Origin: Acidimicrobiales bacterium
GTDB taxonomy: Bacteria; Actinomycetota; Acidimicrobiia; Acidimicrobiales; UBA8190
Direction of reading: 5' to 3'
Assembly (NCBI GenBank): GCA_030040015.1
Contig: JASHUM010000058.1
Location: 1 to 42,474, forward strand
DNA: 42,474 bases
A model generated the notes under the pieces. That model had not been told where the DNA came from. It did not search any database and saw only the letters and a list, made by a program, of their open reading frames with translations. Below are positions 24,261-27,806 of this stretch, piece by piece (within the stretch, counting starts at the first letter, position 1; each line of letters starts with the position of its first letter). The position numbers and the translations under genes are program-made.

Positions 24261-26132
24261 TCAGCCTGCGGCGGCCGTGGCCTCCTCGGGCGTGGGCCGG
24301 TGCACCTTCTGGCTCACGACCTTCGACGACCCCCCCGGGGTCATGGTGACGCCGTAGAGCGCGTCGGCCGCCTCCATGGTGCGTTTCTGGTGGCTCACCA
24401 CGATGAGCTGGGCCTCACCGCGGAACTCGTGCAGGAGGTCGAGGAAACGGTGCAGGTTGACGTCGTCGAGCGCCGCCTCGACCTCGTCCATCAGGTAGAA
24501 GGGCGAAGGCCGGCTCCGGAAGACGGCGAAGAGGAACGCCAGGGCGACGAGGGAGCGTTCCCCGCCGGAGAGAAGCGACAGCTTGCGCACGTTCTTTCCC
24601 GCCGGCCGGGCCTCCACCTCGACGCCCGTGTTGAGCAGGTCGTCCGGCTCGCTCAGGGTGAGGCGCCCCGTCCCGCCCGGGAACAAGGCGCCCACCAACA
24701 CCTGGAAGTGGGCGTTCACGTCGGCGAAGGCCTCGGTGAAGACGCGCATGATCTCGTCGTCCACCTCGCGGATGAGCTGGTGGAGCTCACGGCGCGCCCG
24801 CCGGACGTCGTCCATCTGGTCCTCGAGGAAGCGGTGGCGCTCCTCCAGCCCGCTCAGCTCCTCCATGGCCAGCGGGTTGACGGGCCCCAGCGAGGCCAGC
24901 TCCTGCTCTAGGGCGACGGCACGCTGGGCGGCGGTCGTGTCTTCGGGCAGCTCCGGGCACGGGGCGGAGACGGCGTCACCCGGCTCGCAGCCGAGCTCTC
25001 GGCGCAGCGCCTCGGCCGCCGCCTGGTGACGGACGCCGTCCTCGGCCATCTCGAGCTCGATCGACTGGAGCCGCTCGCGGACCTCGCCCACGGCCCGCTC
25101 GGCCTCGCCCCGGCGCCTGCGAAGCGACTCGAGGAGCGCACCACCGGCACGCGCCTCGTCGACCTGTCGCGACCGCTCCTGCGCCAGCTGGTCCTGCTGC
25201 TCGCCGATGCGGACGCCAGCGCGCTCGAGCACGGCGACGAGCCGGTCGACGACGGCCACGTCCTTCTCGATCCGGCGGCGCCGGTCCCCGGCCGCCTCGC
25301 GTTCGGCCACGTGGCCGGCCAAGCGCCTCTCCACGTCGGTCAGGCGGGTGGACAGCAGGGCGCGTCGCTCAGCCAGGCCGGCCGCCCGGACCTCGAGATG
25401 GCGTTCGGCCGCTTCGAGCAACTCACCTCGCTCCTCCAGCTGGCGTCTGGCCTGCCCGGCCTGCTCGAGTCTGCGGCCGGCGGCCTGGGCTGCCGCCTCC
25501 AGATCCACCAGTCGGGCCTCGAGCTCGCCCATGGCCTCGCTGTCCGCCTCGACGCGTCCAGCGACGACGTCACGCTGGCGACGCACCTCGGAGAGTTCGT
25601 CGTCGGCCCTTTGGAGCTCGGTGGCCAGCCGGGCGGCCGCCTCGACCACGGCTTGGCGACGCTCGGCGGTTCGCTCGGCGTGGCGATCGGCCTCGGCCCG
25701 GTGGGTGGCCGCCTGCCCCCAGGCGCGACGGGCGTCGTCGAGCTCCCGAGCCGCGTCGTGCGCCTCGGACGCGGCACCAGCGGCGACCCGGCGGACCTCC
25801 TCGGCGGCAGCCGCGGCGACCTGGGCCCCGCCGGCACCGACCATCCATCCCGACGCCGAGAGGCGGTCGCCGCCGGCCGTCACCACCACGAGATCCGGAT
25901 GGGCCGACGCCACGTCGGCGGCGGAGCGCCAGTCGTCGGCCACCACCACGCCGGCGAGCATGCGGTCGAGGACGGCCTCGAGCACCCGGGCCGATCCCGA
26001 CCCGGCCGGACGGGGCCGGGCCATGGGTCGCAGCGGGCGCAGGCCCCGGCGCTCCAGGGCCTCGGCGCCGGGGAGCGCGGAGCCGGGGCCGGCACCCTCG
26101 GCCTGCGCCACGGGCACCACGGTCCCCGCCAC
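24261..26132 (-). CDS. smc: SMC protein, C-terminal half (after in-frame TAG)
   Basis: A 623-residue frame with the second half of the hinge (AGVVVADDWRSAADV and VVVTAGGDRLSASGW), the returning coiled coil, and the C-terminal ATPase lobe: signature LSGGERSLVALAFLF near 545 and Walker B FYLMDEVEAALDD near 567, then VVSHQKRTME. The reading frame is the same as that of the N-terminal half, separated by TAG at 26139-26141 and two codons. GTG 26132 is six bases after the stop, with AGGA upstream at short spacing, so reinitiation is possible. Either a genuinely split SMC, readthrough, a fresh nonsense mutation or a sequence error. Confidence 0.9.
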   Translation of the reverse strand: MAGTVVPVAQAEGAGPGSALPGAEALERRGLRPLRPMARPRPAGSGSARVLEAVLDRMLAGVVVADDWRSAADVASAHPDLVVVTAGGDRLSASGWMVGAGGAQVAAAAAEEVRRVAAGAASEAHDAARELDDARRAWGQAATHRAEADRHAERTAERRQAVVEAAARLATELQRADDELSEVRRQRDVVAGRVEADSEAMGELEARLVDLEAAAQAAGRRLEQAGQARRQLEERGELLEAAERHLEVRAAGLAERRALLSTRLTDVERRLAGHVAEREAAGDRRRRIEKDVAVVDRLVAVLERAGVRIGEQQDQLAQERSRQVDEARAGGALLESLRRRRGEAERAVGEVRERLQSIELEMAEDGVRHQAAAEALRRELGCEPGDAVSAPCPELPEDTTAAQRAVALEQELASLGPVNPLAMEELSGLEERHRFLEDQMDDVRRARRELHQLIREVDDEIMRVFTEAFADVNAHFQVLVGALFPGGTGRLTLSEPDDLLNTGVEVEARPAGKNVRKLSLLSGGERSLVALAFLFAVFRSRPSPFYLMDEVEAALDDVNLHRFLDLLHEFRGEAQLIVVSHQKRTMEAADALYGVTMTPGGSSKVVSQKVHRPTPEEATAAAG

Positions 26133-26138
26133 CTCGTC

Positions 26139-27806
26139 CTACCTGAGCCGGCCGAGGGCGGAGCGAGCCGCTGCGGCGTCGTCGACCACCACGCCCGACG
26201 CCGCCGGCCCGAGCGCCGCCTCGACGGCGCCCTCCCATCCCGAGTCGACCTCGAGCAGCTGGGCGAAGACCCCGCGTACACCGGGTGCACCCGACAGCGC
26301 GTCGGCAGCCGCCGAACCGACTGCCTGGGCGGCGGCACGGCCGAGCGCCTCGGCCCGAGCCTCCAGCCGGTGCCGGCGCGCCTCGGTGTGGCGCAGGGTC
26401 TCCTCGGCTGCGTCGCGCCGAGAAGTGGCCTCCTCGAGCTCAGCTGCAGCGGCACGGCACGCCGGAGTGGCGGCGGAAAGCTCGCCGTCGAGCTCCCGGA
26501 GACGCCCGGTCAGCGTCGCCGACTCCTCCTCGAGCCGCGTGCGGCGCTCGGTCGATGCGGCGAGTCGACGATCGAGGGCGTCGAGCCCGGCGCGGTCGCG
26601 CTCGAGCGCGCCACGCTGCGCGGGCAGCTGGCCCCGGGTGACGGCGAAGTCCTCCTGGGCCCGGCGCAGCGAAGCTTCGTCACCGAAGGCGGCGGCGTGC
26701 TCGGCCTCGGCCAGAGCCAGCTCGTTGCGGCCGGTGGACAGCGCGCCGCGCTCCGGCTCCAACGACGCATCCTCGGCCGCCAACGCGTCGAGCTCGGAGG
26801 CCAACCTGGCCGCGTCCGCCTCCAACGTGGAGACCACGTCCACGTCGGCGGCCGCCTCGAGGTCGCGCACGAGGGACCGCCGCCGCTCGGCCAGCACGCC
26901 GGAGAGCCCGCGGCACCGCTCGGCCAGCGCCTGGACCCGGGTGAGGGCGGTCACGAGCTCCTCACCCCGGTGCTGGGAGAGCTCCTCGGCGGCGGCGTCG
27001 GCGGCGGTGTCGATCTCGACCATCTCCCGGCGCAGCCGGCCTTCCTCGCTGCGCAGGCGTTCGCCCTCCACGGCGCCAGCGGTTCGGCGCTCCTCGAGCC
27101 CGTGCAGCTCCCGGCCCACGAGGAACAGGCGCAGGGCACGCAGCTCGTCGGCCAGCACGGCGTGCGACCTCGCCGCCGCCGCCTGACGCTCGAGGGGGCG
27201 CATCTGGCGGCGCACCTCCCGCACGAGGTCGCTCAGACGCTCGAGGTTCTCCTCGGTCGAATCGAGCCGCCGCTCGGCCCGCTCGCGGCGACGCCGGTGC
27301 TTCAAGACGCCGGCCGCCTCCTCGATGACGGCCCGGCGATCCTCGGAGCGTGCGTTCAGGATGTTGTCGAGCTGGCCTTGACCGACGATGACGTGCTGTT
27401 GGCGCCCGACACCCGAGTCTGAGAGCAGCTCCTGGACGTCGAGCAACCGGCACGCCTGGCCGTTGATGGCGTACTCGCTGTCTCCCGAGCGGAACAGGGT
27501 GCGCGTGATGGTGATCTCGGCCAACCCTCCGGGCAGTCGCCCGGCGCGGTTGTCGATGGTGAGCGACACCTCGGCCCGGCCCAGCGCGGGGCGATCGGCC
27601 GACCCGGCGAAGATGACGTCCTCCATCTTCTGCGATCGCACAGTGCGCGGTCCCTGGGCGCCGAGCACCCACGCCACCGCGTCGACGACGTTCGACTTGC
27701 CGCTCCCGTTCGGCCCCACCACCACGGTGATCCCAGGCTCGAGTTGCAAGGTGGCGGGATCGGCGAAGGACTTGAAGCCCTTCAAGGTGAGCGACTTGAG
27801 GAACAC
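26139..27806 (-). CDS. smc: SMC protein, N-terminal half (ends at TAG in hinge)
   Basis: A 555-residue frame with the N-terminal ATPase lobe: FLKSLTLKGFKSFADP at the start, Walker A VVGPNGSGKSNVVDAV near 32, the QGQLDNILNARSEDRR Q-loop region near 145, a long coiled coil, then the first half of the hinge (GVRGVFAQLLEVDSGWEGAV and AALGPAASGVVVDD). It stops at LGRLR-TAG where the chain should continue to DEVAGTVVP. Both halves plus the gap total about 1,180 residues, the normal SMC length. GTG 27806 lies 8 bases after TAGGGT. SMC with ScpAB (not in this window) compacts and segregates chromosomes. Confidence 0.92.
   Translation of the reverse strand: MFLKSLTLKGFKSFADPATLQLEPGITVVVGPNGSGKSNVVDAVAWVLGAQGPRTVRSQKMEDVIFAGSADRPALGRAEVSLTIDNRAGRLPGGLAEITITRTLFRSGDSEYAINGQACRLLDVQELLSDSGVGRQQHVIVGQGQLDNILNARSEDRRAVIEEAAGVLKHRRRRERAERRLDSTEENLERLSDLVREVRRQMRPLERQAAAARSHAVLADELRALRLFLVGRELHGLEERRTAGAVEGERLRSEEGRLRREMVEIDTAADAAAEELSQHRGEELVTALTRVQALAERCRGLSGVLAERRRSLVRDLEAAADVDVVSTLEADAARLASELDALAAEDASLEPERGALSTGRNELALAEAEHAAAFGDEASLRRAQEDFAVTRGQLPAQRGALERDRAGLDALDRRLAASTERRTRLEEESATLTGRLRELDGELSAATPACRAAAAELEEATSRRDAAEETLRHTEARRHRLEARAEALGRAAAQAVGSAAADALSGAPGVRGVFAQLLEVDSGWEGAVEAALGPAASGVVVDDAAAARSALGRLR

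Follow-up and report, generated by a model that had tools for sequence, protein, structure and literature searches.

Bacterial SMC proteins (PF02463, with the hinge PF06470) are made as one uninterrupted chain, whereas the smc frame described here carries, in the assembly, one in-frame TAG in its hinge. Among the Actinomycetota, at least Corynebacterium glutamicum can do without the gene, being viable when it has no working smc (PMC11898615). A search of the literature for a natural split of SMC at the hinge returned nothing relevant.

The smc frame and its internal stop

In the window, which is the whole stretch of 42,474 nucleotides analyzed from the draft genome of an Acidimicrobiales bacterium, a single base creates an in-frame TAG in the middle of smc, on the minus strand at positions 26141-26139 and in the context CGG CTC AGG TAG GAC GAG GTG. 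This is the sole internal stop of the frame, codon 607 of 1233 in the translation of 27959-24261, and no frameshift is involved. Homology to smc begins with VFLKSLTLKGF at codon 52, at about position 27806. As judged from the sequence, the GTG at 27806 is probably the start codon of a gene that likely extends to 24261 and comprises about 1,180 codons, and the TAG corresponds to about residue 556 of the likely SMC protein.

The motifs of the SMC ATPase are present in the translation, namely Walker A (GPNGSGKSN), the Q-loop region, the signature (LSGGERS), and Walker B (FYLMDEVEAALDD). Pfam SMC_N matched both parts, the head with Walker A in the N-terminal part and the head with the signature and Walker B in the C-terminal part; the N-terminal head and the first 49 hinge positions are located 5' of the TAG and the C-terminal head 3' of it, and both parts of the hinge domain are present, set between two long coils. 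The first-pass annotation, made from the letters of the window, had described an smc of normal length (about 1,180 residues) that is interrupted by one in-frame TAG in the hinge without a frameshift and retains its motor motifs in both halves, and the sequence, the translation, and the Pfam matches agree with this description. The coordinates are listed in Table 1.

Table 1. Features of the interrupted smc gene (positions of the window)
Feature	Position	Strand	Evidence
smc N-terminal part: head with Walker A, coil, first part of hinge	26142..27806	-	translation, Pfam
In-frame TAG, variable hinge position	26139..26141	-	sequence, relatives' alignment
GTG, possible restart codon, ribosome-binding signal not unusual	26130..26132	-	ribosome-pairing energy
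smc C-terminal part: remaining hinge, coil, head with signature and Walker B, terminal TGA	24261..26138	-	translation, Pfam
Hinge region modelled, TAG read across	25755..26321	-	structure model
Stretch of about 80% G+C surrounding the stop	25990..26290		base composition

Position of the stop in the hinge

For the model of the hinge, the TAG was read through and the sequence was aligned with that of 44 relatives. The model had a mean pLDDT of 90.5 and matched the solved SMC hinges 5h69 and 1gxj in structure. Within the modelled segment, the TAG takes the place of residue 61 and closes a helix from 49 to 61; a strand from 68 to 70 follows, and the variable linker joining the two half-hinges begins about 15 residues 3' of the TAG. 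Judging by the alignment, the established fold of the hinge, and the order of its elements, the strand 68-70 should belong to the first half-hinge, and the predicted cut is inside this half-hinge, 5' of its last strand. The earlier proposal that the stop falls between the two half-hinge subdomains is contradicted by the model and the alignment. In the linker itself, at positions 26019-26030, the nearly invariant R-x-H-V of the relatives is R-P-M-A in the window, with both the H and the V replaced.

Related smc genes at the site of the stop

A total of 95 loci from about 90 genomes could be read across the site, at least 5 of the loci being duplicates of a record that occurs in two collections; the named genomes among them were mostly Acidimicrobiales. 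None of the 95 loci had a stop at this position. In wider alignments, no stop was found inside the smc of the relatives, and those that appeared were outside the gene, either 5' of the start (upstream of codon 52) or where the gene terminates (codons 1220-1221). The residue at the position of the TAG is variable (Q in 22 loci, E in 19, R in 18, S in 11, G in 8, and others), and the codons CAG (18 loci) and GAG (7 loci) are each one base away from TAG. The two halves of smc join without a spacer or an indel, and the two codons that separate the TAG from the GTG at 26132 align with the relatives. An exact-pattern scan of viral contigs did not find the same DNA.

Three genus mates (G001, G002, and G003) were unreadable at the site owing to contig ends: the contig of G001 stops about 105 codons 5' of the site, and in G002 and G003 the contig begins 3' of it, at distances of about 68 and 159 codons, respectively. 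Similarly, one contig of G013 ends 5' of the hinge and another begins 3' of it. TAGs in the smc matches of G001 and G002 were considered as a shared split and rejected, for they are upstream of the true start codon. An alignment of related smc genes across the hinge, as proposed in the first-pass annotation together with a search for decay, yielded an uninterrupted smc wherever the site could be read, but decay elsewhere in the copy of the window was not seen.

G002 possesses two smc copies on separate contigs, a close one at 72% and a divergent one at about 55-61%, and G010 and G015 have two smc N-terminal parts each, on different contigs; these genomes may have a second smc, or the bins may be contaminated. 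The closest named relative (L039) is labelled Acidobacteriota although its smc relatives belong almost without exception to the Acidimicrobiales or Actinomycetes, and the label looks wrong.

Conservation of the interrupted copy and search for other interrupted genes

Both 5' and 3' of the stop, the SMC heads are 93-95% identical to those of the genus mates, the changes being concentrated at third positions, and the heads and the N-terminal coil in the window are about as diverged from outgroups as those of the genus mates, not more. In the first half-hinge, the divergence from outgroups slightly exceeds that of four family members (0.453 vs. 0.465-0.544), a gap too small to argue for relaxed constraint on this part, which was rejected. 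ScpA and ScpB are both intact and encoded elsewhere in the genome, on contig C114. Since both halves of smc are conserved as in the genus mates and the partner proteins are intact, the data give no hint that the gene has long been decaying as a pseudogene or that it was split long ago and has adapted to the split.

When 0.95 Mb was scanned by codon usage for genes interrupted in frame, 42 junctions emerged. Ten suspicious junctions were read through; no domain extended across the stop, and they look like ordinary neighboring genes. The junctions beyond these 10 were judged by eye from the letters alone, and the junctions tested in the 0.95 Mb revealed no further gene broken in this way. A stricter scan overlooked even the smc stop, because the codon usage of coiled coils scores low.

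G+C content and contig breaks around the hinge

The 300 bases around the stop have a G+C content of 80.3%, compared with 74% for the smc gene and a mean of 69% for the sampled genome. This value is reached by 0.05% of the sampled 300-base windows, some of them at the smc stop itself, and is nearly the highest of the genome. The stretch 25900-26199 in the smc hinge, with about 80% G+C, is likewise among the richest of the genome, and contigs of the family often break in or near the hinge. The extreme G+C content together with the contig breaks around the hinge in the genus mates and in G013 suggests poor coverage of this region, and the read depth at the site of the TAG was presumably low.

Restart and use of TAG

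The GTG at 26132, two codons 3' of the TAG, has an AGGA just upstream. Its pairing with the ribosome is equalled or bettered at 15 of the 75 internal in-frame start codons of smc. Of the earlier claim that this GTG and the nearby AGGA permit a restart, the two elements stand as seen, but by this pairing the signal they form is an ordinary one. RF1 is present in the genome, and no tRNA with a CUA anticodon was among the 31 tRNA genes found, which in a genome that is 77% complete is weak evidence alone. TAG terminates 7 of the 39 clear coding ends in the window, the smc TAG included, and, across the sampled 0.95 Mb, 117 of 724 clear coding regions. With RF1 present, no CUA tRNA found, and TAG common at gene ends, recoding of TAG is not supported, in line with the initial view that TAG is used as an ordinary stop and that global recoding is unlikely.

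Explanations for the stop

Somewhat better than even is the chance that the isolated stop stems from an error in the assembly consensus and that the gene is a normal bacterial smc in one piece. In the draft assembly the smc frame is interrupted by one base at a non-conserved hinge position; the likeliest source is an error in the consensus, or a minority read, within sequence of about 80% G+C that is poorly assembled in this group, and the real smc of the organism would then be uninterrupted. We infer the base error from the isolated stop, the stop-free relatives, the lack of other decay, the extreme G+C content, and the contig breaks. One nonsense error per about a megabase would already arise if consensus errors were very rare; a search of the literature on assembly errors found no paper. 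Against a consensus error, the absence of any other interrupted gene among the tested junctions indicates that the assembly is not generally poor, and smc can be dispensable to an actinomycete, so that a real nonsense allele is biologically possible (PMC11898615). Such a recent true nonsense mutation in the strain or species, leaving a truncated, inactive SMC in a cell that lives without SMC or carries a minority allele, is the less probable of these two but a serious contender: one change from a CAG- or GAG-type codon suffices, and the absence of other decay would be expected if the mutation was recent, whereas the intact ScpA and ScpB and the intact smc in all readable relatives argue for continuing use of the protein, and the stretch around the stop is prone to poor assembly.

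Four options had been offered originally, and all evidence fits two of them, the base error and the recent nonsense mutation, but the other two, a two-chain SMC and readthrough, lack positive support. In a working two-chain SMC, the N-terminal chain would end at the TAG, translation would restart at the GTG, and the chains would associate via the hinge and the heads. The motor motifs in both parts and the closeness of the GTG with its AGGA to the stop agree with this, but a fifth of the internal smc start codons carry a restart signal as good or better, the last strand of the first half-hinge would end up on the other chain, the split was found in none of the readable relatives, and no natural SMC split of such kind is described in the literature found, all of which makes a two-chain SMC very improbable. 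As the three genus mates are unreadable at the site, such a split might be specific to the genus, with the protein assembling through the interrupted half-hinge; this version, too, deserves hardly any credence. Equally little weight can be given to readthrough or suppression of the TAG, yielding some full-length SMC: the frame runs on unshifted and the position accepts many residues, but RF1, the tRNA set recovered from the incomplete genome, and the frequent use of TAG at gene ends oppose it.

Comparison with known SMC systems

A natural two-chain SMC, if true, would mean that this motor can work with its hinge cut. What the evidence favors is an ordinary hazard of draft metagenome assembly, namely one wrong base or a nonsense allele of recent origin, here where the G+C content is extreme, and it advises caution, as split genes should not be read from a single assembly. 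A new two-part protein is unlikely; most likely the assembly is in error or the copy was broken very recently. The smc-deleted C. glutamicum is an actinomycete living without a working smc (PMC11898615), but this is a laboratory deletion and not a natural nonsense allele, and nothing shows that the present organism lacks SMC. With bacterial SMC, the gene in the window shares the sequence, the domain order, the length, the ATPase motifs, and the hinge fold.
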